From Chitinivorax sp. PXF-14 (GTDB lineage: Bacteria > Pseudomonadota > Gammaproteobacteria > Burkholderiales > SCOH01), in assembly GCF_040812015.1 (NCBI RefSeq), contig NZ_JBFNXJ010000009.1:1-64000 (forward strand): DNA of 64,000 nucleotides, written 5' to 3'. Below are positions 19,428-55,163 of this stretch, piece after piece; the stretch's first letter is position 1, and the number at the start of each line of letters is the position of its first letter. The notes under the pieces were generated by a model that saw only the letters and a program-made list of their open reading frames with translations, searched no databases and was not told where the DNA came from. Made by a program: the position numbers and the translations under genes.

Positions 19428-20255
19428 ATGCCAACTTACGCCATCGGTGACATCCAGGGCTGTTTCGAGCCCCTGCAAGCCCTGCTCGCACAGATCGAAT
19501 TCGACCCCGCGCGGGACCGCCTGTGGCTCGCCGGCGACCTGGTGAATCGCGGCCCCGGCTCGCTCGACGTGCTGCGCTGGGCTTACGGGCTACAGGATCA
19601 CATCGACGTCGTGCTCGGCAATCACGACCTGCACCTGCTCGCCGTCGCGGCCGGGCATGGCAAGCAGCACTCGGACGACACCCTTGGCGACATTCTGGCG
19701 GCCCCCGATTGCGACGACCTGCTGGGCTGGCTACGCCGGCAGAAGCTCGTGCATGCCGCCGAGGGCTACCTGATGGTGCATGCGGGCCTGTTGCCGCAAT
19801 GGTCGGCCGACGATGCCCTCCGCCTTGCGCGCGAGGTCGAGACTGTGCTGCAGGGCGACGCGCACCACGAGCTGTTTCGCCACATGTACGGCAACGAGCC
19901 GCGCCACTGGGACGAGGCGCTGACGGGATGGGAGCGGCTACGGCTGATCGTCAACGCCATGACGCGCATGCGCCTGGTGACGCGGGACGGCGACATCGAC
20001 CTGAAGTACAAGGGGGAATTACCCGACGCCCCGCCCCACCTGACCGCCTGGTTCGACGCACCGGGCAGGCGCAGTGCCGGCACCCCGGTCGTGTGCGGCC
20101 ATTGGTCGGCACTCGGGCTCAGGCTGCGCGACGACCTGCTGGCACTCGATACCGGCTGCCTGTGGGGTGGCGCGCTGACTGCCGTCAGGCTGGAGGATCG
20201 GCAGGTGTTCCAGCTGCCTTGCCGAGCAGCGGCAGATTTAACGCACTACCTATGA
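19428..20255 (+). CDS. apaH: Symmetrical bis(5'-nucleosyl)-tetraphosphatase
   Basis: This 275-residue metallophosphatase hydrolyses Ap4A to two ADP. The phosphoesterase signature is complete: GDIQGCF (7-13), GDLVNRGPGS (36-45), GNHDLHL (64-70), a histidine in MVHAG and GHWSALG near the C-terminus. Length and motif set match ApaH. The 3' end overlaps the convergent olsA gene by 71 bases, an unusually long convergent overlap, but both C-termini look normal for their families. Confidence 0.95.
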   Translation: MPTYAIGDIQGCFEPLQALLAQIEFDPARDRLWLAGDLVNRGPGSLDVLRWAYGLQDHIDVVLGNHDLHLLAVAAGHGKQHSDDTLGDILAAPDCDDLLGWLRRQKLVHAAEGYLMVHAGLLPQWSADDALRLAREVETVLQGDAHHELFRHMYGNEPRHWDEALTGWERLRLIVNAMTRMRLVTRDGDIDLKYKGELPDAPPHLTAWFDAPGRRSAGTPVVCGHWSALGLRLRDDLLALDTGCLWGGALTAVRLEDRQVFQLPCRAAADLTHYL

Positions 20256-21003
20256 GCGCTTCCGCCTCGCGGCACAGATGGCGGCGGTGCGCGCCTTCAG
20301 CGGTCAGCGTGCGCGAGAAGTGCAGCTCGGCCACGATTTCACGCACCGAGACAATGCGCCAGATCGACTCGATCAGCGACAGGTTGTCGGTATAGGCAGG
20401 CGCCAGCGTGACCTGGCCATCGGTACCGAGGTAGCGCAGCCCGACCGGCTGCACCATGCCCTGCGATTCGAGAATGGGTTGGAACAGCGAGGCATTGAAC
20501 GGGCGCAGGAAGGTGCCGTTGGCCGTCGTCCCCTCGGGGAACATGGCAATGCAATCGCCCTCCGCCAGTGCTGCCGACACGACACTGCCGACCCGTGCCG
20601 TGTCGCGTTTCCTGGCGCGCTCGATGAACAGGGTGCCGGTGTTCTCGCACAGCCAGCCGATGACAGGCCAGTTGCGGATCTCCGATTTCGCCACGAAGCG
20701 CGACACCGTCACCGAGTTGAGCACGAAGACATCGATCCACGAGATGTGGTTGGCGACGAGCAAGGTATTGCCTGGGTAGACGCCCGGCGTCTCACCCACC
20801 ACCTTGACCTTGAGGTTGAGAATGCTCGCCATCGTGGCCGACCAGCTCTGCACGAAGGCCACCCGGCCATCGCGGTCCAGCACGGGGAAACGGATTGCGA
20901 CCCTGGCCACGCCATAGAACAGGTGGACGGTCAGGCGAAACAGGCGCCAGAAGCGCAGCGGGTAAAACGTCTTACGCACTACAAGCCCTCGTGAATTGCG
21001 CAT
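20185..21003 (-). CDS. olsA: Lyso-ornithine lipid O-acyltransferase (PlsC family)
   Basis: This 272-residue 1-acyl-glycerol-3-phosphate acyltransferase-family protein has motif I NHISWID (the H-x4-D catalytic pair), motif III FPEGTT and an N-terminal membrane region. The ATG at 21003 is preferred over a longer upstream frame whose extra residues are Arg/Cys-rich and unlike coding sequence. It lies downstream of and on the same strand as an OlsB-like gene. That pairing defines the second step of ornithine-lipid synthesis, so it is called OlsA rather than general PlsC. The intergenic gap to olsB is 169 bases, so a separate promoter is possible. Its 3' end overlaps apaH. Confidence 0.75.
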   Translation of the reverse strand: MRNSRGLVVRKTFYPLRFWRLFRLTVHLFYGVARVAIRFPVLDRDGRVAFVQSWSATMASILNLKVKVVGETPGVYPGNTLLVANHISWIDVFVLNSVTVSRFVAKSEIRNWPVIGWLCENTGTLFIERARKRDTARVGSVVSAALAEGDCIAMFPEGTTANGTFLRPFNASLFQPILESQGMVQPVGLRYLGTDGQVTLAPAYTDNLSLIESIWRIVSVREIVAELHFSRTLTAEGAHRRHLCREAEALIGSALNLPLLGKAAGTPADPPA

Positions 21004-21172
21004 GACGATGCGCCGTTCTGAAAGGCGGACATTGTAACGATGGGATGGGGCACAAGGCGAGCCTGTTGCGCATGCCAACCGCATTTCATGAACGGCCCGG
21101 CATGCGCGACGGGCACGCCAACGGGTAACGGCCACAAGCCGCGCCCATCGGGCTCATGCAGGCCAGGCCGGC

Positions 21173-21925
21173 TCAGCGGCCGATGAAGTGGCGCAGGTAG
21201 CGCTGGTTCATCTGCGCCATCGGCAGCAGCATCAGCAGATCGGCGGTATTGAAGTCGGGATCCCAGGCCGGCTCGCCGCATACCAGCGCGCCAACGCGCA
21301 GGTAGCCCTTGATCAGCGGCGGCAACTGTACATCCTGGCTGGCATCGATGGCATCGAGCGGCAGCGGGCAACGCGGAAAAGCACGCCACTCCACGGGACT
21401 TATGTGCTTGTCGCGGACTTGCTTGAAGATGCCGACCGCATTGTGTCCGCCGTCGGCCATGCTGATGCTGGCACAACCGATCAGGTATTCGTAGCTGTTG
21501 CGCACCATGTATTCGGCGAGGCCCGCCCACAGCATGGTGATGGTGCCGCCGGAACGATAGTCGGGATGCACGCAGGAGCGGCCGATCTCGACCATGCGGT
21601 TGCGGATGTGGCCAAGCCGCACCAGATCGAATTCCGACTCGGAGTAGTAATTGCCGATCTTGCGTGCCTGCGATGGAGACAGGATGCGATAGGTGCCAAC
21701 GACCTCACCAGTGCTGTCGTCGCGCACCAGCAGATGCTCGCAGAAGGCGTCGTACATGTCGCGGTCAAGGCCGGTGGCAGCGTCGGGCAGGCGCGCGCCC
21801 ATCTCCTCGGCAAACACCTGGTAACGCAGACGCTGGGCCTCGGCGACTTCATCGGCATGGTTCGCCAACGATACCGACAGCTTGCCGCTGACGTGCGACT
21901 TGTCCTCTACCCTGGGTTGCAGCAT
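21173..21925 (-). CDS. olsB: L-ornithine N-alpha-acyltransferase (OlsB-like GNAT)
   Basis: This 250-residue protein belongs to the acyl-homoserine-lactone-synthase-like GNAT branch that includes OlsB. Characteristic blocks are EAQRLRYQVFAEEMGARL, GTYRILSP, EIGRSCVHPDYRSG and LIGCASISMADGG, plus a C-terminal KGYLRVGALVCGEPAWDPDFNTAD. OlsB transfers a 3-hydroxyacyl chain from ACP to ornithine to make lyso-ornithine lipid, a phosphorus-free membrane lipid. GGAG lies 8 bases before the ATG. The olsA-like gene follows on the same strand. The gene diverges from a secreted protease. Confidence 0.85.
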   Translation of the reverse strand: MLQPRVEDKSHVSGKLSVSLANHADEVAEAQRLRYQVFAEEMGARLPDAATGLDRDMYDAFCEHLLVRDDSTGEVVGTYRILSPSQARKIGNYYSESEFDLVRLGHIRNRMVEIGRSCVHPDYRSGGTITMLWAGLAEYMVRNSYEYLIGCASISMADGGHNAVGIFKQVRDKHISPVEWRAFPRCPLPLDAIDASQDVQLPPLIKGYLRVGALVCGEPAWDPDFNTADLLMLLPMAQMNQRYLRHFIGR

Positions 21926-22091
21926 TGCGATTTCTCCATCGAATCAATGCTGCACAGGCTAGGGCCTGCCCATGCAATTCGCGTTACCGGACGGTTAAGT
22001 TTTGGTGACACCCCGGGCGCCGCAGCAGCAGGTCCGATGCCGGAGCCGATCGGCTATACTGGCTGCAGTCGACATCCACACAAGGAAAGCC

Positions 22092-22865
22092 ATGTATCCC
22101 AAGACAGGCTTGTGTTTTCTGCTGCTCGGCGCCTGCCTGGCCGCCCCCCTGGCGGCCCATGCCGAGTCCCTGCCGGACACGGTGGACAAGGTGCGCCCGA
22201 GTATCGTCGGTGTCGGCACCCAGTCGCCGACACGCCAGCCGCCGGTCAGCTTCCTGGGTACCGGTTTCGCGGTGGCCTCGGGCAACCTGATCGTCACCAA
22301 TGCGCACGTCGTGCCGCCCGTGCTCGACCCGGAAGGCAAGGAAAAACTCGGCATCCTGGTACGCCAGAACGGCCAGGCAGTATTCCGCGAGGCGGAGCTG
22401 GTGGGCAGCGACAAGGCGCACGATCTGGCGCTGCTGCGTATTGCCGGTGTCCCGCTGCCACCACTGACGATCGGCGATTCGTCGAGGGTGCGCGAGGGCG
22501 AGGAAGTCGCCTTCACCGGCTTCCCGATCGGCATGGTGCTCGGCCTGTACCCGGCAACCCATACCGGCCGCGTGGCCGGCATCACCCCCATCGTGCTGCC
22601 GGCGTTGACCTCGCGCCAGCTCGATACCAAGGTGGTAAAACGCCTGCAGTCCGGCGCGTTCAGCATCTTCCAGCTTGATGCCACCGCCTATCCGGGCAAT
22701 AGCGGCAGCCCGGTCTATGAGCCCGAGACGGGCAAGGTCATCGGCATCATCAACATGGTGTTCGTCAAGGGCACCAAGGAAGCGGCACTAACGGCGCCAT
22801 CCGGCATCACCTACGCCATCCCCTCGAATTTCATCGACGAGTTGCTGCGCGCGAAGGCGCCGTAG
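22092..22865 (+). CDS. Secreted trypsin-like serine protease
   Basis: This 257-residue protein has a cleavable signal peptide (cleavage probably after AAHA, about residue 24) and an S1-fold protease domain. The triad is visible: His72 (TNAHVV), Asp111 (AHDLALL) and Ser204 (YPGNSGSPV). There is no PDZ domain, so it is a short HtrA-like or S1C-type enzyme in the periplasm. ATG 22092 is chosen because AGGAAA precedes it and the signal peptide starts there; longer upstream reading lacks a signal. Its last 35 bases overlap the convergent polymerase gene of the polysaccharide locus, and it may belong functionally to that locus. Confidence 0.85.
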   Translation: MYPKTGLCFLLLGACLAAPLAAHAESLPDTVDKVRPSIVGVGTQSPTRQPPVSFLGTGFAVASGNLIVTNAHVVPPVLDPEGKEKLGILVRQNGQAVFREAELVGSDKAHDLALLRIAGVPLPPLTIGDSSRVREGEEVAFTGFPIGMVLGLYPATHTGRVAGITPIVLPALTSRQLDTKVVKRLQSGAFSIFQLDATAYPGNSGSPVYEPETGKVIGIINMVFVKGTKEAALTAPSGITYAIPSNFIDELLRAKAP

Positions 22866-25188
22866 GCACGCTCTTCATCAGGCTAAGCCAGAGCACGAGG
22901 TAGAACAGCCAGGCGATGCGACCGAAGTCGAGCAGGCTGTCGAACAGGCCCACCGCCAGCAGGCCGATGAGGCCCGCCAGCATCGGCACGGCCAGCCGGT
23001 CGTCGCGGCGGTGGCGTGACAACAGCGATGCGACGGCCGCGGCCAGCACGCAGCAGAAGCTCAGTACACCGGCCAGTCCCTGCTCGTAGTAGACGTGCAG
23101 CCACATGTTCTTGGCGTGCCACGGCAGGTGGTGGCGGTCGCTGGTGTAGGTCCAGTGCGCGATGCCCTGACGGAAGTCGCCATTCTTGAGCAGCGAGCGC
23201 CCGCTGGCATCGGTGACGTCGATGTCGGTCAGGTCGATACTCGATGCCCGGTTGGTATTGCCCGTCGACAGGTTGATCTGGCTCGGGCGCAGCCATGAGC
23301 GCCCATCGACGATGCGCTCGCCCTTGAGCATGACGCGGATCGGCTGCCACGTCGTCCCCACGTTGCCCGCCCCGGCAAATAGGCAGTTGAACGGGTAGAG
23401 CAACCACTTGTCGCACAGGTAGATGTCGAATGCGCCATCTGGCATGGCGCTGCGTGCCAGCGCCGAGAAGTAGACCGTGCCCGAGCCGAGCGATACCCGC
23501 TGCGACAGCCGCACCACCTCGCCGAAGCCGCCGATGAAGCGCGGCGCGGCGAGCTTCACGTAGTTGCGGCCAGCCTCGTGCACCAGTTGCACGGCGCCGG
23601 GCAGCTCGGCGTGGCGGTTGTGCCAGTAGTAATCATCGACGAAATGCCCGACCCCCTTGCCCAGCAGCATGGCCGCGGGGCTATCCACCAGCGCCACGAC
23701 GTCGCTCCAGTGCTGGCCGCGGCCCTGCAGATCCTGCGAGACCTGGCCGAAGCGTTGCCCCATGTAGTAGTTGCCGAGCACCGGCACCACCACCGCACTC
23801 AAGGCGATGAAGACGACAGGCAAGGCCAGATCGCGCGGATGCTCAGCCCCCCAGCCGGCCAGACGGCCGACCAGCAGCGTCGCCCAGGCGTAGCCGCCCC
23901 AGGCCAGGGCCGCCGTCAGCGCGGCTTGCCCGCCCCAATGCCAGCCCACCATCGGCACGGTCAGGGGCAAGGCCAGCGTGGCCACCCAGGCCAGCGCCAA
24001 GCCGCGGGCCGAACCCGCACGCCAGTACCACAGCCAGCCGGCGGCGGCCGTCAGCGCGGCCAGCGCACAGGCAAGATAGGCGCCCTTGTCGAACAGCGCG
24101 AACAAGGCAAACACGGCAGGCACTCCCAGCATGGTCGGCGCCAGCAGCAAGGCCGGGCGGCCGCGCGACGGCCGGGGCGTGGCCACCAGCAATAGCGCGG
24201 CCACGATCGCCAGCAGGGCCGCGGCAAGCGTGCGGTAGCCGCCGCCATGAAACACCTGCAGCAGGCCGTAGATGCCGGGCAACAGCCACAGCAGCACGCC
24301 GATCGAGCGCCGCCCTGCCCCCGTGCCGCGCAGCAGCAAGGCCGCCATCACCAGCACGCTGAGCAGGCCGCCTAGGTAGACGCCGCGAGAAAAGGTGGTC
24401 AACGAGGCGTACAGCCCGAGCCCCAATACGCCAGCGCCCACCGCCAGCCAGGCATCGTGGCGCTGGCGCAGACCGACCCACAGCAAGAGCGGCAAGCCGA
24501 GCGCCAGATAGCCATCCAGCGCGGCGCCACCGGCAAACATCTCGTAGAACGGCCCCACCGCGCGATAATCGCTGGCGAAGTCGGTCAAGCCAGGGAACAG
24601 CCAGCGCTCCGCCACCACCATCGCGCTGGCCAGGCACAGGCCGATGGCCATGCCTGGCATGAAATAGTGCCACAGGGCCGTCTCCCGCTCAGCCCAGGCC
24701 CGCCGCACCAGTGGCAGCATGGCGATACCGAGCAAGGTGCCCTTCGCCCCGCGGACCACATTGCTGGCGCTCAGCGAGCCAGGCAGCCAGGTCGCAGATG
24801 GGTCCAGCTGCAGCACACCATGCACCAGCGCGCCGGCCCACGACAGCAACAGCCCCCCCACCAGCACCGTGGCAAGCGGGGACAACCGCCCCGCCACCGG
24901 CTGGCGCGGCGCCTGCCAGTAGGCGACGGCTAGCGCCGGCAGCACCAGCAAGTCGAACTCCTGCAACTCGAGCCAACCGCTCCACGGCGACCAGTCCATC
25001 AAGGGCAACATGGCCGGCAGCGTCAGCAGCCAGGCCAGCGGCCAGCGTGCCTGCACCACCAGCTGCAACAGCAACAGGGGCAGCAGCAGCGGCAAGTAGG
25101 GGCGCCCCCACAGTCCGGCCAGCAACAGCGCGAGCCATAGCAGGGACAGCATGCGAAAGCCGATCAGGCGCGGCAGGCTGGCAATCAT
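22831..25188 (-). CDS. O-antigen ligase/polymerase-family membrane protein with large extracytoplasmic insert
   Basis: This 785-residue polytopic protein is much longer than the usual 400-450 for Wzy/WaaL-type proteins. Residues 1 to about 530 and the last about 85 are hydrophobic helices typical of O-antigen ligase/polymerase proteins. Between them, about 550-700, lies a soluble segment with RGQHWSDVVALV, GSGTVYFSALARS and NGDFRQGIAHWTY, the last being typical of jelly-roll carbohydrate-binding domains. It probably polymerises or transfers glycan chains at the periplasmic face. ATG 25188 overlaps the stop of the beta-helix gene (ATGA) and has GGGAG before it; the frame upstream is non-coding. 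It is the last gene of the left block. Confidence 0.8.
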   Translation of the reverse strand: MIASLPRLIGFRMLSLLWLALLLAGLWGRPYLPLLLPLLLLQLVVQARWPLAWLLTLPAMLPLMDWSPWSGWLELQEFDLLVLPALAVAYWQAPRQPVAGRLSPLATVLVGGLLLSWAGALVHGVLQLDPSATWLPGSLSASNVVRGAKGTLLGIAMLPLVRRAWAERETALWHYFMPGMAIGLCLASAMVVAERWLFPGLTDFASDYRAVGPFYEMFAGGAALDGYLALGLPLLLWVGLRQRHDAWLAVGAGVLGLGLYASLTTFSRGVYLGGLLSVLVMAALLLRGTGAGRRSIGVLLWLLPGIYGLLQVFHGGGYRTLAAALLAIVAALLLVATPRPSRGRPALLLAPTMLGVPAVFALFALFDKGAYLACALAALTAAAGWLWYWRAGSARGLALAWVATLALPLTVPMVGWHWGGQAALTAALAWGGYAWATLLVGRLAGWGAEHPRDLALPVVFIALSAVVVPVLGNYYMGQRFGQVSQDLQGRGQHWSDVVALVDSPAAMLLGKGVGHFVDDYYWHNRHAELPGAVQLVHEAGRNYVKLAAPRFIGGFGEVVRLSQRVSLGSGTVYFSALARSAMPDGAFDIYLCDKWLLYPFNCLFAGAGNVGTTWQPIRVMLKGERIVDGRSWLRPSQINLSTGNTNRASSIDLTDIDVTDASGRSLLKNGDFRQGIAHWTYTSDRHHLPWHAKNMWLHVYYEQGLAGVLSFCCVLAAAVASLLSRHRRDDRLAVPMLAGLIGLLAVGLFDSLLDFGRIAWLFYLVLWLSLMKSVPTAPSRAATRR

Positions 25189-26507
25189 GGTGCATCTCCC
25201 GGCGTCAGGCGCCCGGCCAGGTAGGGGGCGAGCGGCTGCCCCGAGGCCGTGGCATAGGCGCCGACGTAGCGGCTGGCGAAGCGCCGCCCGTCGAAGTCCC
25301 GGACCGCATCGGTGTAGGCCGTCAGCCACGCCGGATCTGCGCTGTCGAGCCGTAGCCTGCCCGGTAGCGGGTAGAGGCGGCTCGCCCCTGCACTGGCGAA
25401 CGGCGCGCGCAGGTATTGCGGAGCGGCCTGCCATTCGGCCTCGACATTGCCCCAACGCTCGCCGCCGCTGTTGCCGCGTGCCGAGAACACCGCGTTGGCG
25501 TACACCCGCTGCGGCTCGCCGGCGCCGAACAGCGGGTTGCGGATCAGGATGCCGTCGCCCGTAGCCAGCACAGTGTTGCGAAAGATGTCGATACGGCGCG
25601 GAATGTCGTTGTGCGGCTGGATGTGCACGGCATCTCCATGGCTGTTGAAGAGCACGTTGTGATAGAAGGCGATATTACCCTCCCCCTGGAACAAGGCCTC
25701 GCTCGGGTTCTGATAGAACAGATTGCCGTAGATTTCGTACAGATCGTCCTGCCCCGCCCCCTGCAAGGGCCAGTGGCCGACCAGCACGCTGGGGCGCGCC
25801 GCAATGCCGCTGCTGCTGTTGTGCCCCTTGATGAACACATTGTGCCGGATCAGGGTGCGCGACGGCTGCACCGGCATGTCGGGTAGCGGCGGACGCGGCT
25901 GCTGATGCTTGATCTGCAGGTTGTAACCGATCGAATCCGCCACCACATTGCGCTCGATCAGGCCGACCACAAACGGCGCGCGCCCATCGGAATTGCCGAG
26001 ATACATGCCGGTGCCGGCGCCGACGATGCGATTGTCGCGGATCACCCAGTTCCAGGCCGGGCATTTGGTCGAGATGCCGACATAGCCCTGATCCACGCCA
26101 TGGCGGACGATCAGCAGGTGCTCGAGCGTGATGTGGTGCGCCCACTGCGCATTGCCCTCGGCACGCACGCCATCGGCCGGCTGGTCGCCGCCATCGAGGA
26201 CAAGGTTGCGTACCGTGACATAGGCCGAATCGACGATGCTGACCGTGTTGCGGTTAGCGCGGGCGAGGAACACGGCCCGCTTGTCCGGGTCGCCAGCAAT
26301 GATGATCGGCTGCTCGGCGGTACCGAGCAGCCGATGCACTGGCAGGCCGCCACGATAGACACCCGGTGCAAGCAGCAACTCGTCGCCCGGCTGCAATTCA
26401 GCCAGCCGGCTCAGGTAGTCATCCGGGCCCGCGTGCAGCGTCGCCGCGGCCAACACGCCAGGGCAGCAGGTGAAACACAGCAGCAGCCGGGCGGCGACAC
26501 GGCGCAT
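25185..26507 (-). CDS. Secreted right-handed beta-helix protein
   Basis: This 440-residue protein has an N-terminal export signal (ARLLLCFTCCPGVLAAA). The body is a run of beta-helix rungs (TVRNLVLDGGDQ, HITLEHLLIVRHG, NWVIRDNRIVG, YEIYGNLFYQN, IAFYHNVLFNSHGDAVH, IDIFRNTVLAT), the fold of polysaccharide lyases, epimerases and hydrolases. The early part (GDELLLAPGVYRG) is typical of the N-terminal cap in alginate-lyase and epimerase-like proteins. Within a polysaccharide locus it probably trims or epimerises the exported glycan in the periplasm; the exact activity cannot be assigned. Translationally coupled to the polymerase gene. Confidence 0.75.
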   Translation of the reverse strand: MRRVAARLLLCFTCCPGVLAAATLHAGPDDYLSRLAELQPGDELLLAPGVYRGGLPVHRLLGTAEQPIIIAGDPDKRAVFLARANRNTVSIVDSAYVTVRNLVLDGGDQPADGVRAEGNAQWAHHITLEHLLIVRHGVDQGYVGISTKCPAWNWVIRDNRIVGAGTGMYLGNSDGRAPFVVGLIERNVVADSIGYNLQIKHQQPRPPLPDMPVQPSRTLIRHNVFIKGHNSSSGIAARPSVLVGHWPLQGAGQDDLYEIYGNLFYQNPSEALFQGEGNIAFYHNVLFNSHGDAVHIQPHNDIPRRIDIFRNTVLATGDGILIRNPLFGAGEPQRVYANAVFSARGNSGGERWGNVEAEWQAAPQYLRAPFASAGASRLYPLPGRLRLDSADPAWLTAYTDAVRDFDGRRFASRYVGAYATASGQPLAPYLAGRLTPGDAP

Positions 26508-26516
26508 GGGACAAGG

Positions 26517-27275
26517 TCAGCGTTCTGGCGAAGCCGGCACGGCAGGCGGCGTCTGCGTCGACGGCGCGGGCGCCTGGGCCGCAGGTGCCGCTGATGTCGC
26601 AGGCGTTGCGCTGATGGCCGGCGTGGCCGGTGCGGGTGCCGGTGCGCCCTCCGGCGCCTCTTTCCAGGCACCGGCCTTCTTCAGCTTGTCACGCAGGCCG
26701 GGGAATGGGAAACCGCCCGCATAGGCCTTGTGGGCATAGTCCAGCGACTGCGCGTAGTCCTTCTTGGTGAAGAACAGCAGACCCAGGTTGTAGGCGATGT
26801 TCGGATCGTTCGGCAGGGCCTCGTCGGCCTCTTTCAAGAGCTTGATCGCCTCATCGGTCTTGTTCAGTTTGCCCAGATAGGTGGCGTAGATCATCTTGGC
26901 AGTCGGATCGTGCGGGAAGAACGTCACCGCGCGTTCGAGATAACACTGCATCGAATACTTCGCGCCATATGGCTTGGTGGTGTGGCCGCGATCGGCCAAA
27001 CGCATCATCGCAGCCAAGGCACGTGGATGGTTGGGATAGTTTTCGAGCGTATAGGCGATATCCCCACCAGGCATGGTGCCACTCGTGCCATGAATGCCGA
27101 GTTCGACATCCGAGGAGAAATGCGCGCGCTCGATGATGGCGAGCAACTGGGCATCTTCCCGCACCGAATAGTCACGGTTTTTCGGCCCCTTCACCATGGG
27201 GCAGTCTTCTTCCATGCCCCAGGCGAGCGGGGTCAACGCCAGCAGCAACAGCGCACACAGCAAACGGTCCTTCAT
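26517..27275 (-). CDS. Periplasmic TPR protein with Ala/Pro-rich tail
   Basis: This 252-residue protein has a signal peptide (LLCALLLLALTPLAWG), then TPR-like helix pairs at about 60-190 (PKAMIY-type helices, NIAYNLGLLFFTKKDYAQSLDYAHKAYAGG). A flexible Ala/Pro/Thr tail covers the last about 55 residues. TPR proteins in exopolysaccharide loci act as scaffolds between inner- and outer-membrane machinery. ATG 27275 has GGAGAGG in front and is preferred over 27293. It sits 9 bases before the beta-helix gene in the same operon and 67 bases after the glycosyltransferase gene. Confidence 0.7.
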   Translation of the reverse strand: MKDRLLCALLLLALTPLAWGMEEDCPMVKGPKNRDYSVREDAQLLAIIERAHFSSDVELGIHGTSGTMPGGDIAYTLENYPNHPRALAAMMRLADRGHTTKPYGAKYSMQCYLERAVTFFPHDPTAKMIYATYLGKLNKTDEAIKLLKEADEALPNDPNIAYNLGLLFFTKKDYAQSLDYAHKAYAGGFPFPGLRDKLKKAGAWKEAPEGAPAPAPATPAISATPATSAAPAAQAPAPSTQTPPAVPASPER

Positions 27276-27342
27276 CGCACCTCTCCAAATCAAGATATGG
27301 GCCTATCTAGCGTAGGCTTTGCGCTGAACGTGCGGATGCCGT

Positions 27343-28581
27343 TCAGCAAACCTGGTCCAGCAGCTCGGCGAACTGCCGGGTCCGCCCGCGGCGCGAGGAC
27401 GCGCGCACCGTCTCGTCGCTCGCCACCGGCGCACGGCCAAGCGGGATATCGTCGAGGAAGCGTGTCAGGCGCACGGCGATGTCACCCGCATCGTCGAGCC
27501 GCGCGATCGAATCGACGCCCGCCGCCTTCAGCGTCAGCGCCGTGTCGCCAGCGGGATCGGTCAGTGCCAGGATCGGCTTCTGCGCGCGGAAGTATTCATA
27601 CAGCTTGGCCGGTATCTGGCCGTTGCAGTTCGAGGCCTGCATCACCAGCAGGCCATCGACCGACAGCATTTCGGCCAGCGCATCGTTATAGGGGACAGCC
27701 GGCGCCAGCTCGACCAGATCGCCAATGCCGACATCGGCAATCTGCCTGGCGATAAAGGCGTCGTTGCCGGTGGCGCGCAGCCGAACCTTCAAGCGCGCGG
27801 CATCGATCCGGCCGGCCTGCTTCAAGCGCGCCAAGGCCGCGAACAGCTGGGTCGGATCGCGTTCGCTCGGGTAGACGATGCCGCTATGGAGCAGCACCTT
27901 CGGCCCCTGTGGCGGCGCTGCAAGCGGCGCCGGGCCTCGCAGGAAGGCCTCCTCGTCGTAACCGTTCTCGAGCAGCACCAGCTTGCCGTCGGTCAGCGCC
28001 GGATAGGTTTTCTGGTACTCGCGGATCGCCCCGGGCGAGGTAAACGTCGCGCGCGCGCAGCGTTTGAAGGTTTCCATCTCGATACGCTGGAAGGCACGCC
28101 AGGTAGCCGGGTCGGCCGGGTAGCCCTCCTGCGCCATCGGGTCGCGGAAATCGGCGATCCACGGCAGGCCGGAGAGCTTCTGCAAGGTCAGGCCGATCTT
28201 GTGTGCGGTGGCGATCGGGTAGGTCGACCAGATCGCATCGGGCTTATAGCGCCGGATCAGCTTGAGCCCGGCCGGCACCGCCCCCCACCACCAGCTTGCC
28301 CAGCGGTCGGGCAGTGCAAAGGCGCGCGGATAACGGCCCGCCAGTGCCAGATGGCGCGAGGTGTCGAGGGCAAAGGCGCGCTCGACGATGGTATTGGCGG
28401 GGATATCGGCCATCAGGTCGGCCGAAGTGTCCTGATAGGCGCGCGGATGGGCCGTCAACACGATCGGCTCCCAGCCGAATTCCGGCAGGTACTGAGAAAA
28501 GCGCAGCGCACGCTGGATGCCGCTCGACCCACGCAACGGCGGGTAGTGGTAAGCGATCAACAGCACCCGTTTTTTCTTCAT
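27343..28581 (-). CDS. GT4-like glycosyltransferase
   Basis: This 412-residue cytoplasmic glycosyltransferase has a GT-B fold. The N-terminal part has VLLIAYHYPPLRGSSGIQRALRFSQYLPEFGWEP-type features of GT4 enzymes, and the C-terminal domain contains VELAPAVPYNDALAEML and the acidic acceptor/donor region PAKLYEYFRAQKPIL, in which the Glu of KLYEY corresponds to the nucleotide-sugar-binding Glu. The sugar is unknown. Its ATG overlaps the stop of the exosortase-associated hydrolase 1 gene (ATGA), so it is translationally coupled within the left block. Confidence 0.85.
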   Translation of the reverse strand: MKKKRVLLIAYHYPPLRGSSGIQRALRFSQYLPEFGWEPIVLTAHPRAYQDTSADLMADIPANTIVERAFALDTSRHLALAGRYPRAFALPDRWASWWWGAVPAGLKLIRRYKPDAIWSTYPIATAHKIGLTLQKLSGLPWIADFRDPMAQEGYPADPATWRAFQRIEMETFKRCARATFTSPGAIREYQKTYPALTDGKLVLLENGYDEEAFLRGPAPLAAPPQGPKVLLHSGIVYPSERDPTQLFAALARLKQAGRIDAARLKVRLRATGNDAFIARQIADVGIGDLVELAPAVPYNDALAEMLSVDGLLVMQASNCNGQIPAKLYEYFRAQKPILALTDPAGDTALTLKAAGVDSIARLDDAGDIAVRLTRFLDDIPLGRAPVASDETVRASSRRGRTRQFAELLDQVC

Positions 28582-29432
28582 TCACGCACCCAACTCAGTG
28601 TCCAGTCGGCAACGCGGTCGCGCCATTCGCGCCGCGAAAAGGTATGGTTGGCTTCCGCCAGCTCGCGTTGCGTCACGCGCGGGGCGGCAAGCTGCGCCTG
28701 CCAGTCGGGCGAGGCCGCCACCGCCTCGCGGAACTCGGCGGCAGTGAGATCGTCGCCAGACAGCACCAGCAGCACCCGCCCGGCAAAGCGCCGCAAGCCC
28801 TCGCACATGCGATCCGGCAAGGACAGGCTTGCATCGAGCCCCAGCTCGGCCACTGGCGCCGCCGGCTGCCTGGCCTGCGCGAGCTTGTCGACCAGTGAGC
28901 GCCAGGCGTCCTTCAGATCGACCCCGCCGCACAGCAGCTTGCGCCAGAACTCGGCGCTAAGCAGACGTTGACGGTAGTAATGCTTGATATAGGCACGCGC
29001 GAGCCCCGCCTCGGTGCGCACCCAGGGGTTGAGCAGCACCAGCCCGGTCACGCGCTTGTCGCGCCAGGCATAGAACAGGGCCGCAGAGGCCGCATCGCAC
29101 AGACCCCAGATCACGACCTCGCGCACCGCTGGCGCCGCGTGCTGGAAGGCATCGATGGCGGCACGCAGATCGTCATCGATCTGCTCGAAATTGTGCAGCT
29201 CGCCACCGGCATCACCCATGCCACGGTAGTCGAAGCGCATCGCAGCGATGCCGTGCCGGGCCAGGTGCCGGGCCAACAGCACGAACTGGCGGTGGCTACC
29301 GGCGCGATACTGCGGCCCGCCCACCACGATCAGCACGCCTCGCTCGGCCATGCCGTTTGCGGGCAGACTGATGATGGCGGGTAGCGACTCGCCCTGGCAG
29401 TCGAATGTCAGCGCCGACTCAGACCAGGACAC
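28578..29432 (-). CDS. Exosortase A system-associated hydrolase 1
   Basis: This 284-residue alpha/beta-hydrolase belongs to the family found beside exosortase A polysaccharide genes (hydrolase 1). The oxyanion/strand segment VLIVVGGPQYRAGSHRQ near the N-terminus, RFDYRGMGDAGG, the nucleophile-elbow region VVIWGLCDAASAAL and the C-terminal histidine in EANHTFSR are visible. The elbow reads G-L-C-D-A, so the nucleophile position appears to be Cys rather than Ser. GTG 29432 is chosen because GGAGGA lies 5 bases before it; the start then overlaps the hydrolase 2 gene by 14 bases. It probably releases or transfers an acyl group tied to the ACP pathway, but no biochemical role is established to my knowledge. 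Confidence 0.8.
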   Translation of the reverse strand: MSWSESALTFDCQGESLPAIISLPANGMAERGVLIVVGGPQYRAGSHRQFVLLARHLARHGIAAMRFDYRGMGDAGGELHNFEQIDDDLRAAIDAFQHAAPAVREVVIWGLCDAASAALFYAWRDKRVTGLVLLNPWVRTEAGLARAYIKHYYRQRLLSAEFWRKLLCGGVDLKDAWRSLVDKLAQARQPAAPVAELGLDASLSLPDRMCEGLRRFAGRVLLVLSGDDLTAAEFREAVAASPDWQAQLAAPRVTQRELAEANHTFSRREWRDRVADWTLSWVRE

Positions 29433-30252
29433 GACGCTCCTCCTGCGCAGCAAGCGTGGCATCGAGCAAGGCCGGTACGTCGGTAATCTCCTGCGTGGAC
29501 CAGAATGGCTCGCCGATCACCGCCTGCAGGGCAATCTCGACACCTGCCGCGCAGCGCTCCGCAACGAGCTTGTCGATCACGCCAGGCAAGGGGCGGTCGG
29601 CGGATGTCTGCAATTCGAACCAATCGACCTGCTGGCCCGGCTGCAACAGCGTGGCCAACTTGCACGCCGCCATAGGCAGGGCCAGTGCAGGCGCCAGCTC
29701 ATAGCCGGCGACCTCGACGTTCGCACCAGCCTGCAGATTCTGCTGCAGCTGCTGGGTGGTGAGCCCTTCGCCACCCGCGAGCATCTGGTTCGCCACCCTC
29801 AGGCGCAGGAACTGGGTAAGGAATTGTTCGCCATGGAGTACCGGCGACCATAACAGCAAGCGTCGGCAATCGGCATCGCTGGCGGCATGGGCGGCCGCCA
29901 GCAGGGCACCGAGGCGGCAGCCCCACAGCATCGGCGCCTGGCCGTAACGGCTGCGCATCCAGGCCACGGCGTGGCCCACATCGTCGAGCCAGCCCGACCA
30001 GCTGGCATCGCTGAAATCCCCCGCGCTGTCGCCGCAACCGCAGAGATCGATCTGCAGCACCGCGATGCCGCGCTGCGCCATGCGACGCGCGGCCATAGCT
30101 GCCATACGGCGGGACTTGTTCATTTCTTCGGCGAACGGGTGCAGGTAGACCGCACACGCCCGCGTTTCGGTCAGGGACGGATAATGCAGGCAGAAACGCT
30201 GGCCCGCCGGCGTCTCCAGAAAGAAGGCATCCGGCCCTGCCACGTTGCTCAC
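29419..30252 (-). CDS. Exosortase A system-associated hydrolase 2
   Basis: This 277-residue alpha/beta-hydrolase belongs to the second family linked to exosortase A loci. Features include the strand AVYLHPFAEEMNKSRRM, DLCGCGDSAGDFSDAS, the nucleophile-elbow region MLWGCRLGALLAAAHA and a C-terminal part carrying VIGEPFWSTQE. The elbow reads G-C-R-L-G, again with Cys at the nucleophile position, matching hydrolase 1. The start is GTG at 30252, overlapping the acyl-carrier-protein stop (GTGA). The tight coupling to ACP suggests that its substrate is carrier-bound or derived from the carrier pathway. Confidence 0.8.
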   Translation of the reverse strand: MSNVAGPDAFFLETPAGQRFCLHYPSLTETRACAVYLHPFAEEMNKSRRMAAMAARRMAQRGIAVLQIDLCGCGDSAGDFSDASWSGWLDDVGHAVAWMRSRYGQAPMLWGCRLGALLAAAHAASDADCRRLLLWSPVLHGEQFLTQFLRLRVANQMLAGGEGLTTQQLQQNLQAGANVEVAGYELAPALALPMAACKLATLLQPGQQVDWFELQTSADRPLPGVIDKLVAERCAAGVEIALQAVIGEPFWSTQEITDVPALLDATLAAQEERRVLV

Positions 30253-38782: not shown

Positions 38783-40081
38783 TCACACCGGCCTTGCCCG
38801 CGCCGACCTCATCGGCCGCCGCGCTTCATGCCAGACGGGCTGCAGCGCGCGCTCGCGGGCCAGCCAGCGGTCCATGCAGGAGAGGATGACGAGGAGGTAG
38901 TAAGGCAGGTCGAAGTAAGCCAGGCTCAGGAAGGCACCGCCGACCGCGAAACCGGCCAGGCTCACCTGTGCCATACGGGCGAACATGGTGATCCATGCCA
39001 GATCGGCATCATCCTTGGTCGTCTTGATCAGGCGCGAGGCGAGCCGCCAGATCATGATCCCCAGCAAGATGAACAAGCCCAGCCCGACGAAGCCGTGCTC
39101 TCCCAGTATCTGGAAATAGATACTGTGCGCGGCATGGATATCGCTCGGGTCGGGCGCATAGCGGGCAAACGTTGCGCCGTCATAGATCTGGAAGCCGCCG
39201 CCAAAGAAGTTGTCGCAAGCCAGCCGGTAGGCCATGATCCACGCGTTGATGCGCCCCATGGCCGAACCGTCTTCCTGATAGTTGTTGATGGTATCCATGC
39301 GCGCGTGCCAGGCATCGGGCATAAAGATCAGCATGGCCGGCGCAGCCAGCGTGATCGCCAGCCCCACGATGAGTTTTCGACTGCTCTTGAGCCAGAGAAA
39401 GGTGGCCATCGCCACGATGGCCAGAAACGCGCCGCGCGACTGCGTGCCGAGTGCCGAGATGGCGCTTGCTCCCATCACGGCGAGCAGTCCCCATTTGATC
39501 CGCCTGTCGTGCACCTGCTCATGCAGGTAGTAAGCGAGTGGGATGACGACGATGAGCGCCAAGCCCATCTCGTTATTGCCTTCGATAAACGAGCCTGCCG
39601 GCCCCCATACCTTGAAATCGCCGCCGCTGGTCAGGGTAAAGATGCCGCCCTTGAGGCCAAGCAGACCGATGGACAGCGTCACCACCCAGATCAGCCATTC
39701 GATGTGCTTTTTCTCATGCACCAGCAGGATGGTCACGAACAGCATCAGCATGATCTTCATGACCTTGCTCCACATGTCCATGACCACATTGGGGTAGAAC
39801 GAGAACGGCAGGGTGATGCACATCCAGAGCAGGAAGAGCATCCAGACCGCCAGCGCCGCCGAAAACTTGGGCGCATGCACTTCCTTGTTACGGAGCACCG
39901 TCGCCAGCAACGTTGCCCCGCCCACCACCACGGCAACCGGAAAGTCGTAGGCGATGCCCCAGGTAAAGCGGTGCGGGTTCATCAGGCTGATCCATGCCCA
40001 CAACAACGCCCCCACCCAGGGGCGTTGGAACACCATGGGGATGGAACCAAGAATGAAGGCTAGCAGGGCATAATCGCGCAT
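38783..40081 (-). CDS. Putative O-glycosylation ligase, exosortase A system-associated
   Basis: This 432-residue polytopic membrane protein belongs to the Wzy/WaaL superfamily. About ten to twelve hydrophobic helices surround a periplasmic loop (about 240-310) containing DAWHARMDTINNYQEDGSAMGR and HAAHSIYFQILGEHGFVG, the signature of the exosortase A-type ligase. It is thought to attach glycan to sorted proteins or to polymerise repeat units. It is one of two polymerase/ligase-type proteins in the locus; the other is at 22.8-25.2 kb. Both kinds may be needed, one for polymer growth and one for transfer to protein. Confidence 0.88.
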   Translation of the reverse strand: MRDYALLAFILGSIPMVFQRPWVGALLWAWISLMNPHRFTWGIAYDFPVAVVVGGATLLATVLRNKEVHAPKFSAALAVWMLFLLWMCITLPFSFYPNVVMDMWSKVMKIMLMLFVTILLVHEKKHIEWLIWVVTLSIGLLGLKGGIFTLTSGGDFKVWGPAGSFIEGNNEMGLALIVVIPLAYYLHEQVHDRRIKWGLLAVMGASAISALGTQSRGAFLAIVAMATFLWLKSSRKLIVGLAITLAAPAMLIFMPDAWHARMDTINNYQEDGSAMGRINAWIMAYRLACDNFFGGGFQIYDGATFARYAPDPSDIHAAHSIYFQILGEHGFVGLGLFILLGIMIWRLASRLIKTTKDDADLAWITMFARMAQVSLAGFAVGGAFLSLAYFDLPYYLLVILSCMDRWLARERALQPVWHEARRPMRSARARPV

Positions 40082-43183: not shown

Positions 43184-43288
43184 GCCGACACCCCGTGGCA
43201 TGGACTTGTCCGCGCCAGACACAGCGGCGACACGCTTGCACGGCGCCAGTCGTTTCGATCCTTCATGTTCCTCCGCCTATCCATCGAT

Positions 43289-52459: not shown

Positions 52460-53641
52460 CTAGCTCCGTTCCTTGTTCTTGAGCCCGCCCTCGAGGGCAA
52501 GCCGGTAAATCCGCGTATAACGCTCGACCATGCGGTCGAGGCTGAATTGCTGTTCCACCCGCTGGCGCCCTGCCTGGCCGTGCTCGGCGCGCAGCGCGGC
52601 ATCGTCGACATAACGCGCCAGCGCATCGGCCAGCGCCGCCGGGTCGGCCTTGGACACCAATAGCCCGGTGACGCCGGCTTCGATCAACTCGCCATTGCCG
52701 CCCACATCGGTCGCCACGACCGGCAGCCCCGACGCCATCGCCTCGAGAATGGTATTGGATATGCCTTCCGCCAACGATGGCAGCGCGAAGATATCGAAGG
52801 CGCGCATCAGCTCGGGCACATCGTTGCGCGAGCCGGCCATCCAGCACAGCTCCGCCACGCCAGCCTGGCGCAGGATGGCCTCGACATCGGCGCGCAAGGG
52901 ACCGTCGCCGACGATCGCCAGCCGGGCAACCGGCCGCAGCTCAGGGCGGCGCTCGATCAGCAGCGCAAACGCACGCGCCAGGTTGAGCTGATCCTTGACG
53001 GCCTGCAGGCGGCCGACGGTACCGATCACGATCAGCCCGGGCGCATCATTGAACGGGCTGCCCGCTACCGCCTGGCGCTGCGCCGCCGGCAAGAAACGGC
53101 TGTCGTCGACGCCATTGTAAATCTGGCTCAGCTGTTTCGCGGGCACCGCCACACGCTCAAGCAAGTAGCGTTCCAGATCTTTCGACAACGCGATCTGGTG
53201 TTGCACCAGCGGTCGCAAGGCACGCCGCATGCGCTGGTATTTGACGTTGCTGCCGTCGATATCGTCGGCATCACGCCCATGTTCGCTATGAATCCGCCGC
53301 TTGACCCCGGCCAGCATCGCCCAGAACTGCCCTTCCAGCGTCGCCAGATTGCGGGTGTGCAAAAGCGCAGGCTTCAGGCGCCGCAACAGGCGCCATAGCT
53401 GCACATAGGTGCCCAGTGCCTTGCCCGGCGGCTTGTGCAGCGCATACACCTGCACCTCGGGCCGCTTGATGCGGTTGCGAAACTCGCTGTAGTGCGTCAT
53501 GCAGATGATGGCATGGCGGCAGCCATCGTCAGGCATGCGATTGAGCAGATTGACGAGGCCGTTCTCCAGGCCGCCGACGTCGAGACTGTGAATCAGATGC
53601 ACTATCAATGGGCGCTCGGCCCGCAGCCGGTCAGCCGCCAT
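52460..53641 (-). CDS. XrtA/PEP-CTERM system glycosyltransferase (second family)
   Basis: This 393-residue GT4-type enzyme starts IVHLIHSLDVGGLENGLVNLLNRM, with HTRNLATLEGQFWAMLAGVKRRIHSEHGRD and NGVDDSRF in the N-domain and VPELMRAFDIFALPSLAEGISNTILEAMASGLPVVATDVGGNGEL in the donor domain. This set is typical of the glycosyltransferase next to exosortase A. Its start overlaps the xrtA 3' end by 11 bases, indicating translational coupling. Confidence 0.93.
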   Translation of the reverse strand: MAADRLRAERPLIVHLIHSLDVGGLENGLVNLLNRMPDDGCRHAIICMTHYSEFRNRIKRPEVQVYALHKPPGKALGTYVQLWRLLRRLKPALLHTRNLATLEGQFWAMLAGVKRRIHSEHGRDADDIDGSNVKYQRMRRALRPLVQHQIALSKDLERYLLERVAVPAKQLSQIYNGVDDSRFLPAAQRQAVAGSPFNDAPGLIVIGTVGRLQAVKDQLNLARAFALLIERRPELRPVARLAIVGDGPLRADVEAILRQAGVAELCWMAGSRNDVPELMRAFDIFALPSLAEGISNTILEAMASGLPVVATDVGGNGELIEAGVTGLLVSKADPAALADALARYVDDAALRAEHGQAGRQRVEQQFSLDRMVERYTRIYRLALEGGLKNKERS

Positions 53642-55163
53642 GCGCCAAGCTCCGGGTCACGAGCGGCTCCATCGCGCGGGCAAAGCGGTCAAGCGCCACC
53701 TCCTCTGCTGCGGGATCGTCATGCGTATTCAGGTAGTACATGACCACGGCCGAGCTGGCCGGCTTGCCAAGCAGGCGATCGCGCGCCTGCAGCCATTTGG
53801 CCAGATAGGGGCTGGTCGCCCACTCGCCTGCGATCCAGTAGCGTTGCCACACGCGGACGCGGCTCGGCCCGCCCTTGATGTCGATCTCGCTGACCGTGCC
53901 AAGCGCGATCTGGCGATCGGCCATGCGCGAGACCGCCCAGTGTTCATGCTCGCCGGCGACGATGCGGTTGCCGGTCGATACCATCTCCTTGCCCTTGACC
54001 GGGCTTGGGTAGTAGGCGATGAAGACGCCCGCACGCGCACCACCCTGCTGCAGGTCGCGCTGCAGCTTGAAACCGGCATTGTCGTAGCTCGGATGCCAGT
54101 CGTTGCTGGGTGCCGTCCTTTGCCAGCCGTCGGGATCGGGCAGTTGCAGCACGACCTCGACGTTCGGGTGTCCAAAGATATGGTTGGCATACGCCGGCCA
54201 GACACCGGCCACCACCAGCGCGCCAGCCAGCGCGGCAAGCAGGCGCGCACGCGATTGATGCTGCATGCCAGCGACAGCCGCCGGCGTCCCTTCCACGACC
54301 GGCTCGTCGGTATCTTCGCGCCAGAACGCACCGATCCAGAACAGCAGCAGCATGACCAGGCCGAAAAACAGCCAGCCATAGATCAGGTGGTCAACGCCGA
54401 CGGCCAGCTTCATGCCGCTCAGGTGGCCGATCATCACGATCATGTAGGCCCGCACGCCGTTGGCCGCGATCGGCACCAGCACCGACGCCAGCGTGAAGAT
54501 CAGTCGCCGTTTGAAGCTGCGATAGGTGAGATAGGCATACAGCGTGCCGAGCGTGAACGACGCGATCAGGTAGCGCAGCCCGCTGCAGGCCTCGACAACC
54601 GACCACTGGCCGGACGGGATGGTGAAGAACAGCCCCTCGCGGTAGATGGGGATGCCGGTCAGGCGCAGCGCCCAGACGGTGAAGTCGGCGGTAAAGCTCA
54701 TCAACCAGGGCAGGAAGACCTCGCCAAACGGCACGGCCAACACCAGGTAACCCAGCGGGAACAGGATGGCGGACGCCACCTGGCGCCCCAGCATGCTCCA
54801 CACCAGCAACGGCAGCGTCAGGGTGAACGCGTATTGCTGGACCACACCCGCGCCGGCGATGTTGCCCAGCAGCCAGGCGAAGCCGAGCCCCGCCACGCCG
54901 AGCAGCGGCAGGAATTCGGGCTGCGGGTGCAGCGTGGCCAACAGGTGCCTGCGGCGCCAGATCAGCCAGAGACTGATCGGCACGATCAACCAGCCGTGGG
55001 CAAAGGTCTCGGAGCGCTCCCAGATCGCGGCCATGCCCATCCAGGTCTCGCGATACCACCACAGGACGGCCGCCAGCACCCCCAAGAACATCAGCAAGGG
55101 CAAGCGCCAGGCGGCATCGGTCGCTTCACCGGCCGGGATGGATTGGGGCCATTCGCGCTTCAT
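53631..55163 (-). CDS. xrtA: Exosortase A fused to EpsI domain
   Basis: This 510-residue inner-membrane sorting enzyme is expected to cleave the PEP-CTERM signal of target proteins at the periplasmic face and link them to a glycan or lipid. Residues about 20-285 are the eight-helix exosortase domain with the catalytic trio Cys193 (VEACSGLRY), Arg238 (NGVRAY) and His259 (GVDHLIYGW). Residues about 310-505 form the soluble EpsI-type domain (LPDPDGWQRT, SRVRVWQRYWIAG, VMYYLNTHDDPA). Fusion of the two is normal for XrtA. ATG 55163 overlaps the stop of the upstream glycosyltransferase (ATGA). No PEP-CTERM substrate gene was found in this window. Confidence 0.95.
   Translation of the reverse strand: MKREWPQSIPAGEATDAAWRLPLLMFLGVLAAVLWWYRETWMGMAAIWERSETFAHGWLIVPISLWLIWRRRHLLATLHPQPEFLPLLGVAGLGFAWLLGNIAGAGVVQQYAFTLTLPLLVWSMLGRQVASAILFPLGYLVLAVPFGEVFLPWLMSFTADFTVWALRLTGIPIYREGLFFTIPSGQWSVVEACSGLRYLIASFTLGTLYAYLTYRSFKRRLIFTLASVLVPIAANGVRAYMIVMIGHLSGMKLAVGVDHLIYGWLFFGLVMLLLFWIGAFWREDTDEPVVEGTPAAVAGMQHQSRARLLAALAGALVVAGVWPAYANHIFGHPNVEVVLQLPDPDGWQRTAPSNDWHPSYDNAGFKLQRDLQQGGARAGVFIAYYPSPVKGKEMVSTGNRIVAGEHEHWAVSRMADRQIALGTVSEIDIKGGPSRVRVWQRYWIAGEWATSPYLAKWLQARDRLLGKPASSAVVMYYLNTHDDPAAEEVALDRFARAMEPLVTRSLAHGG

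Follow-up and report, generated by a model that had tools for sequence, protein, structure and literature searches.

A 64,000-nucleotide stretch of the genome of Chitinivorax sp. PXF-14 (contig NZ_JBFNXJ010000009.1, positions 1 to 64,000), in the following called the window, encodes a membrane protein of 785 residues (22831..25188, minus strand, ATG start) that is the target of this analysis. With about even confidence for and against, we read it as a C-type glycosyltransferase of the WaaL/Wzy_C fold in an exosortase A exopolysaccharide pathway, whose catalytic loop is opened by a circularly permuted jelly roll like that of the CBM4/16 carbohydrate-binding modules (CBMs); the enzyme would elongate the chain, and the module would hold the chain or the acceptor. 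Computational evidence supports the predicted fold, the insertion site, a permuted order of the strands in relatives, the degree of conservation and the link to exosortase A genomes. Acceptor choice and chain-length control by Wzy/WaaL-type enzymes are poorly understood, partly because their sequences are highly diverse. In this large alignable family, the soluble module in the catalytic loop is a part that lends itself to separate expression, to glycan-binding assays and to deletion.

The inserted beta-sandwich comprises residues of about 530-682 (23143..23601, minus strand). In the AlphaFold2 (AF2) model of the whole target (67 aligned rows; predicted local distance difference test, pLDDT, 87.8; predicted template modelling score, pTM, 0.89), the sandwich covers residues 532-683 and sits between the helices 516-523 and 695-727. 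Modelled separately (residues 518-692, 81 rows), the segment showed nine long strands and a short tenth, with a pLDDT of 87.7 and a pTM of 0.84. The soluble region of about 150 residues containing NGDFRQGIAHW, which the initial annotation had placed ahead of the last helices, is thus predicted as a beta-sandwich and not as an ordinary loop. In structural alignments of the segment with VIA-align, 4mgq was the best match (Z 12.3 over 131 residues, root-mean-square deviation, rmsd, 3.0), CBM4-2 reached a Z of about 10, and meprin and tailspikes ranked below CBM4-2. The first 14 rows were CBM entries except for 3see, a putative sugar-binding protein, and 6zps, a GH51 enzyme. Foldseek gave 12 PDB chains at E ≤0.001, also led by 4mgq. 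The description of the segment as jelly-roll-like was therefore borne out, as its best structural matches are carbohydrate-binding modules, and in the model it is a jelly-roll beta-sandwich of the kind found in CBM4/16-like modules.

Several of these matches speak for more caution about sugar binding. Plain CBM entries made up only 3 of the 12 Foldseek chains (4mgq; 1gui, CBM4; 2zey, CBM16), and the others included PaL, K2-2 tailspikes, a GH51 enzyme, a phage baseplate protein and a putative sugar-binding protein. Sandwiches of a CBM-like fold need not bind sugars, and a predicted fold alone is no proof that this one does.

Conservation was read from three alignments: A1, with 28 aligned members (the protein of the window and 27 relatives), A3, with 67 rows, and A4, with 81 rows. 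In addition, a family search of the GTDB genome collection gave 350 stretches, of which 289 encode a relative by tblastn (stretches, perhaps not distinct genes); the best 80 of these 289, all distinct loci, were kept, and counts out of 80 refer to them. The segment is present in all 28 A1 members and in all 81 A4 rows, and all of the best 80 relatives kept have the insert architecture. N669, F672 and W679, as well as two cysteines, are invariant in A1. The mean information per column was 2.06 bits for the first membrane part, 1.99 for the sandwich and 1.26 for a block of extra helices described below; the NGDF..W stretch reached 2.89 bits and the catalytic motif that follows it 3.11. Among the eight regions compared, the extra helix block was lowest and the second half of the catalytic loop highest. 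The insert is thus about as conserved as the membrane core, and its arrangement is that of a conserved family and not an isolated oddity. The two cysteines, C592 and C602 (23383..23415, minus strand), are both found in 28/28 A1 rows and each in 66/67 A3 rows, and the relative L084 (9501-10028) lacks both. This joint conservation and joint loss fits a disulphide, and the pair is a probable periplasmic disulphide of the insert. In the genome of the window, the insert domain occurs in one copy.

A sceptical reading would take the segment for an ordinary periplasmic loop of Wzy proteins, or for the chance product of a GC-rich reading frame. In its favour it has that the target alone exceeds no Pfam or NCBIfam cut-off. 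It is contradicted by the confident sandwich model, the core-like conservation, the presence of the segment in all of the best 80 relatives and three Wzy_C proteins of the same genome that lack it, so that we regard it as highly improbable. At the level of prediction and conservation, the ordinary Wzy loop was rejected.

For the membrane part, VIA-align of the whole target model was run on 992 chains chosen by Foldseek. WaaL (7tpg_B) ranked first with Z 23.1 and rmsd 4.5 over 370 of its 403 residues, the alignment spanning model residues 44-776; the second row was 4mgq with Z 11.8. Foldseek with the whole model gave no chain at E ≤0.001, 7tpg being at rank 7 (E 0.044, probability 0.97). According to the available part of PMC12800693, this WaaL is from Cupriavidus metallidurans. 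The predicted membrane fold supports membership of the WaaL/Wzy_C superfamily, in agreement with the earlier description of a Wzy/WaaL-type membrane protein.

Searches with the target alone were far less informative. No Pfam or NCBIfam family reached its cut-off with it, and searches against Pfam, NCBIfam and PDB sequences gave no match of note. Specifically, there was no match to Pfam Wzy_C (PF04932), and none to TIGR03097 among NCBIfam models at E ≤0.01. A first contig scan with the target alone had no match either, and the relatives came from whole-genome and profile searches. In the family, 14 of the 28 A1 members match Wzy_C at E ≤0.1 (best 1.2e-9), and the relative L015 exceeds its cut-off (37.4 bits vs 31.7). 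By sequence, the identity of the target is thus weak for the protein alone and clear as a family.

The initial annotation had ascribed the unusual length of the protein to the soluble region, which explains one part of it. PEP_O_lig_1, the superfamily member of ordinary type that this locus encodes (TIGR03097, 501 bits vs a cut-off of 188; Wzy_C 3.4e-21), has 432 residues (38783..40081, minus strand) and no insert. Of the approximately 350 extra residues of the target, about 150 form the soluble insert, and another 160 or so are additional membrane helices. This extra block (residues ~292-455; 23824..24315, minus strand) consists of helices in the AF2 model and is gapped in 14/28 A1 rows at R319 and in 15/28 at K368. 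We refer to proteins with the block, that of the window included, as class A and to those without it as class B, both labels of this analysis. WaaL 7tpg, with its 403 residues, shares the membrane fold with the target and has neither the inserted sandwich nor the extra helix block.

The position of the insert within the enzyme was read from an excised alignment, in which residues 295-455 and 532-684 were removed from the family and the rest was aligned with three Wzy_C proteins from this genome that are of the ordinary type, one of them PEP_O_lig_1. All three have the identical residue opposite R490, G510, G512 and G704, and two of the three opposite R268 and G707. R268, of the TFSRG motif (24385..24387, minus strand), is Arg in 67/67 A3 rows and 27/28 A1 rows; R490, in the GR..HW motif with which the catalytic periplasmic loop starts (23719..23721, minus strand), is Arg in 67/67 and 28/28. 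In the case of WaaL, the available part of PMC10920833 describes two conserved arginines that bind diphosphate. R268 and R490 would be the corresponding pair; this likeness to WaaL, that of R490 and of the glycine positions included, comes via the Wzy_C proteins and not from 7tpg itself. An hhalign comparison of the target with PEP_O_lig_1 gave the same correspondence for R268, though only weakly, with a probability of 5% and an alignment of 76 columns around the SRG motif.

The second half of the catalytic loop, SDRHHLPWHAKN...EQGLAG (H691, K693, N694, G704 and G707; 23059..23142, minus strand), is split off by the sandwich, with GKGVGHF before it and WHAKN...EQGLAG after it. From G510 to K693 there are 184 residues, vs 26 from GGG to His in PEP_O_lig_1. 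As judged from these alignments, the insert divides the catalytic periplasmic loop into two halves, both of them conserved. PEP_O_lig_1 thus resembles the target in its locus and in the shared Wzy_C loop motifs, and differs in its length, in the spacing just given and in having a TIGR model of its own.

The residue at the ligase histidine position is a point against the reading as a WaaL/Wzy_C-type enzyme. The WaaL ligase motif, with its catalytic His, is presumably H[NSQ]x9Gxx[GTY]. The role of this His in WaaL is taken from the available part of PMC10920833. All three Wzy_C comparison proteins have His at this position, and the target has K693, so that its motif reads K693-N694-x9-G704-xx-G707 and lacks the ligase His. 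Lys is found here in 66/67 A3 rows and in 18/28 A1 rows, and other members have E, W, Q, L or H. Because K693 occupies the ligase His position, the target was not filed as a WaaL ligase. H691, two residues ahead, is conserved in 67/67 A3 rows but only in 24/28 A1 rows, and one of the three Wzy_C proteins also has a His there. It was considered as the canonical ligase His and dropped, since the excised alignment places the canonical position at K693.

The strand order of the module is a further peculiarity. NGDFRQGIAHW (residues 669-679; 23152..23184, minus strand), aligned with both 4mgq and CBM16, forms the final strand here, whereas in CBM16 the corresponding strand is the first. The strand order of the target ends ...IDLTDIDVTDASGRSLLKNGDFRQGIAHW, and the NGDF..W strand runs straight into the catalytic motif; the canonical order, with this strand first, is not that of the target module. 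In the profile alignment, CBM16 has its NGDF..W-like strand first. CBM_4_9 domains end with an IDVDDV-like strand. Twelve relatives were then compared in both orders. CBM_4_9 matched 3/12 of them in the natural order (best E 0.019) and 4/12 with the strand moved to the front (best 2.2e-5). In the case of six CBM16 PDB sequences, E decreased from 0.024-0.19 with the natural profile to 0.0063-0.0072 with the permuted one, the alignment now covering the front strand. 4mgq, by sequence, went the opposite way, with 1.4e-5 for the natural-order profile vs only 0.15 for the permuted one; with the A1 profile it was found by sequence alone at 6.7e-6. Because these matches shift in opposite directions, 4mgq can be said to share the permuted order and CBM16 to have the canonical one. 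Altogether, the module looks circularly permuted and CBM4/16-like.

Not all of the tests pointed to a permutation, and the following speak against it. CBM_4_9_1 barely shifted, from 9.3e-5 (3/12) to 2.5e-5 (4/12), and 4d0q became slightly worse, from 0.011 to 0.016. Ten domains, that of the window included, matched no Pfam CBM family in either strand order. In addition, the choice of the twelve relatives (ten class B, two class A) was made with CBM matches in the family already known, as 3/28 A1 members had given a CBM_4_9_1 match at E ≤0.1. Because the ten-domain test was negative both ways, the claim of a permutation rests on the other relatives and on structure. In the genomes of the relatives, Pfam CBM_4_9 matched in 4/60, over the cut-off in 1, and these domains were left out of the profile because they were too few.

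Regarding its closest relatives by fold, the module is thus most similar to 4mgq (PbXyn10C CBM), its best match both in structure and in sequence, which has the same strand order with DDVQLLDPDGNNLIANGTFEENADGW at the C-terminus. We take 4mgq to be from Prevotella bryantii and its CBM to be an insertion in the glycoside hydrolase. It differs from the target in being part of such a hydrolase, labelled as glycosyl hydrolase family 10. CBM4, CBM16 and CBM_4_9 share the jelly-roll sandwich and the NGDF..W strand with the strands that follow; they have the canonical strand order, whereas the domain of the window is recognised by Pfam in neither order.

Relatives of the target were found in 13/100 near genomes and, at E ≤1e-3, in 30/250 genomes of the order, in both cases counting the genome of the window. 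Three short weak matches (G125, G168 and G178) were dropped from the 30, leaving 27 target genomes, which fall in 14 families. At the phylum level, 5/398 genomes have the family at E ≤1e-10, again with that of the window, and one of these lies outside the order. The relatives kept from the GTDB search are mostly from Rhodocyclaceae, Zoogloea, Thauera, Dechloromonas, Accumulibacter, Roseateles and other Burkholderiales, and also from Competibacteraceae. Zoogloea, Thauera, Dechloromonas and Accumulibacter are genera of wastewater treatment, and exosortase A exopolysaccharides are of practical interest in the wastewater genera that carry relatives of the target. Zoogloea is a floc former according to the available part of PMC9850573. 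In the tree, a supported branch (95/97) has 14 of the 16 class B rows on one side, and the other two, L039 and L025, group among class A.

Some relatives have additional domains. An N-terminal VanZ domain was found in 5/5 class B frames scanned (L014, L015, L018, L021 and L023; 9e-25 to 2.2e-14), and in L024 the frame leaves no space for such a domain. L014 has three VanZ stretches. A right-handed beta-helix protein also recurs in the family. In the window it is encoded directly upstream of the target (25185..26507, minus strand), overlapping its start by 4 nt, and has matches below the cut-offs to Pfam Beta_helix (0.0011) and NCBIfam NosD (3e-5). In 4/80 relatives (L090, L101, L106 and L107), the beta-helix continues in frame with the target, with Pfam Beta_helix at 3.4e-5 to 6.3e-4, below the cut-off, in the three scanned. 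In 11/80 loci the beta-helix is either in frame with the target (4) or encoded right next to it in the same direction (7), and an open reading frame (ORF) related to the fused beta-helices or to that of the window, separate genes counted, is found in 18/80. The beta-helix of the window and the fused ones showed no mutual match at 1e-3, and both are matched by an ORF of L049.

These partners suggest a different role for the sandwich, namely that of a module that binds no sugar and serves structure or protein docking, either as a lid on the active site or as a dock for the beta-helix protein, a chain-length regulator or VanZ. The recurrent fused or adjacent beta-helix protein and the VanZ domain in all class B frames scanned would fit such a role, as would the non-CBM proteins among the Foldseek matches. 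Moreover, R560, Q563, R564, R579 and K594, conserved in A3, need not form a sugar site; in A1, 14 of the 28 rows have Y at position 560 and 10 have R. The VIA-align ranking points in the other direction, as the two exceptions to CBM entries among its first 14 rows are themselves sugar-acting or putatively sugar-binding; this argument is weak, since a shared fold shows no function. We consider docking without sugar binding unlikely, and prefer a module that handles the glycan.

In the window, the target is the last of six tightly packed minus-strand genes, in the order exosortase A hydrolase 2, hydrolase 1, GT4-like glycosyltransferase, TPR protein, beta-helix protein and target. The junctions are, in this order, overlaps of 44 and 4 nt, gaps of 49 and 9 nt and an overlap of 4 nt. 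The four genes upstream of the beta-helix gene (26517..30252, minus strand) form the rest of a probable operon and were assigned by ORFs and Pfam, with TIGR03100 and TIGR03101 over the cut-off. A scan for promoters and terminators gave nothing above chance. To the right of this run follow an acyl-CoA ligase, a decarboxylase, amidotransferases, a MOP-type flippase, PEP_O_lig_1, glycosyltransferases and exosortase A (XrtA, with EpsI domain; 53631..55163, minus strand; TIGR03109, 352 bits vs a cut-off of 208), which lies 28 kb from the target. Further exopolysaccharide genes on this side encode a FemAB protein, a deacetylase, an ATPase, an outer-membrane protein, a tyrosine kinase and a chain-length determinant. 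Taken together, the gene neighbours, the fused beta-helix included, point to exopolysaccharide assembly.

The link to exosortase A extends beyond the window. Exosortase A is over the cut-off in 26/27 target genomes vs 33/223 others in the order (Fisher 6e-18, a value inflated by the relatedness of the genomes), and PEP_O_lig_1 is found in 23/27 vs 30/223. The target and XrtA share a contig in 13/26 genomes, at distances of 12.8 to 52 kb, and are on different contigs in the other 13. This co-occurrence with XrtA is that of a component of the exosortase A exopolysaccharide system. Besides the inflated test value, two observations weaken this case. Any of six exosortase A-locus genes was found within the fetched flanks in only 34/80 loci, which the larger usual distance between the target and XrtA may explain. 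PEP_O_lig_1 occurs in 51 of the 59 genomes with exosortase A and the target in 26, which makes the target the optional one of the two; with PEP_O_lig_1 already encoded in the locus, the target may be accessory.

The same association leads to another possible function, that of a ligase instead of a polymerase, which would transfer the finished exopolysaccharide to a protein, perhaps a PEP-CTERM protein, or to a lipid, with the jelly roll recognising the acceptor. The closest solved membrane fold is that of a ligase, WaaL, and the other Wzy_C enzyme of the locus could be the polymerase. The target is also tied to genomes with exosortase A, and in the available part of PMC1569441 exosortase is thought to sort PEP-CTERM proteins. 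Set against this are K693 at the ligase His position, the hypothetical nature of the acceptor, and the fact that the putative O-glycosylation ligase family, TIGR03097, is that of another protein and has no match in the target. A ligase is therefore the less favoured reading and rather improbable, though less so than the docking module.

Under our preferred reading of an elongating enzyme, the donor would be a flipped glycan linked to undecaprenyl diphosphate, and the target would use it to elongate the exopolysaccharide. The jelly roll could hold the chain or the acceptor over the active site, and thereby influence acceptor choice or processivity; in the model, the module ends with the NGDF..W strand, which continues directly into the second half of the active-site motif. 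The same chain might then be modified or handled by the beta-helix protein, whether neighbouring or fused. VanZ has been proposed to act on lipid-linked sugar head groups, and the available part of PMC12419801 also describes VanZ-1 genes adjoining WaaL-like genes and VanZ fusions with jelly rolls. Both this proposal and this adjacency fit the VanZ fusions of class B. More speculatively, and with the chances rather against it, the target could be a Wzy-type polymerase in which the permuted CBM of the catalytic loop couples chain holding mechanically to bond making, as a built-in clamp for processivity or chain length, with the fused VanZ or beta-helix domains of some relatives extending it towards a single-chain machine for polymer assembly.

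Comparable arrangements are found in other enzymes. EmbB is a GT-C arabinosyltransferase with two CBMs, of which the C-terminal one was proposed to admit the acceptor (PMC7341804, available part). It is similar to the target as a multi-pass glycosyltransferase with periplasmic beta-sandwich modules, whereas its fold is the GT-C fold of AftD, ArnT and PglB and, as described there, its CBMs lie near the N-terminus and at the C-terminus and not in the catalytic loop. In the endoglucanase MtGlu5, deleting a CBM that is inserted in the catalytic domain lowers the efficiency (PMC9063844, available part). Here the likeness is a CBM inside the catalytic domain that improves substrate handling; the difference, as far as that text goes, is that MtGlu5 is a soluble hydrolase and its module CBM29-like. 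By titles and abstract openings, no Wzy/WaaL enzyme with an inserted CBM was found in the open-licence PMC literature, which is a weak absence. The available part of PMC12419801 does not contain the architecture of the target. In the main text of PMC10920833, neither carbohydrate-binding nor PEP-CTERM occurs. O-antigen does not occur in PMC9850573, where the one polymerase is RNA polymerase, and no O-antigen-type polymerase for exosortase A exopolysaccharides is mentioned in the available part of either PMC9850573 or PMC1569441.

Several other features of the window were observed. The 3' end of the target gene overlaps a convergent gene for a trypsin-like protease (22002-22865, plus strand) by 35 nt, at 22831-22865. 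Within the exopolysaccharide locus, an AAC(3)-like acyltransferase (44730-45689, minus strand; 125 bits vs a cut-off of 270) is more likely a modifier of sugars or exopolysaccharide than a resistance gene. Three genes for asparagine-synthase-like amidotransferases are present at 35910-37751, 41450-43222 and 50531-52456, and a relative of the first is found in 25/80 target loci. A protein in the middle of the locus (45649-46833, minus strand) matches squalene-hopene cyclase C-terminal and GH127 models with 30.0 and 29.3 bits, just over the cut-offs. A pair of OlsB/OlsA-like ornithine-lipid enzymes (20185-21925, minus strand) is below both curated cut-offs, and a TorT-like periplasmic protein (15872-17047, minus strand) reaches 224 bits vs a cut-off of 200 with one model and stays below that of TIGR02955. 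Elsewhere, in genome G000 (contig C4, 212844-216700), a second exosortase-like gene below the XrtA cut-off has a Wzy_C protein about 3 kb away.

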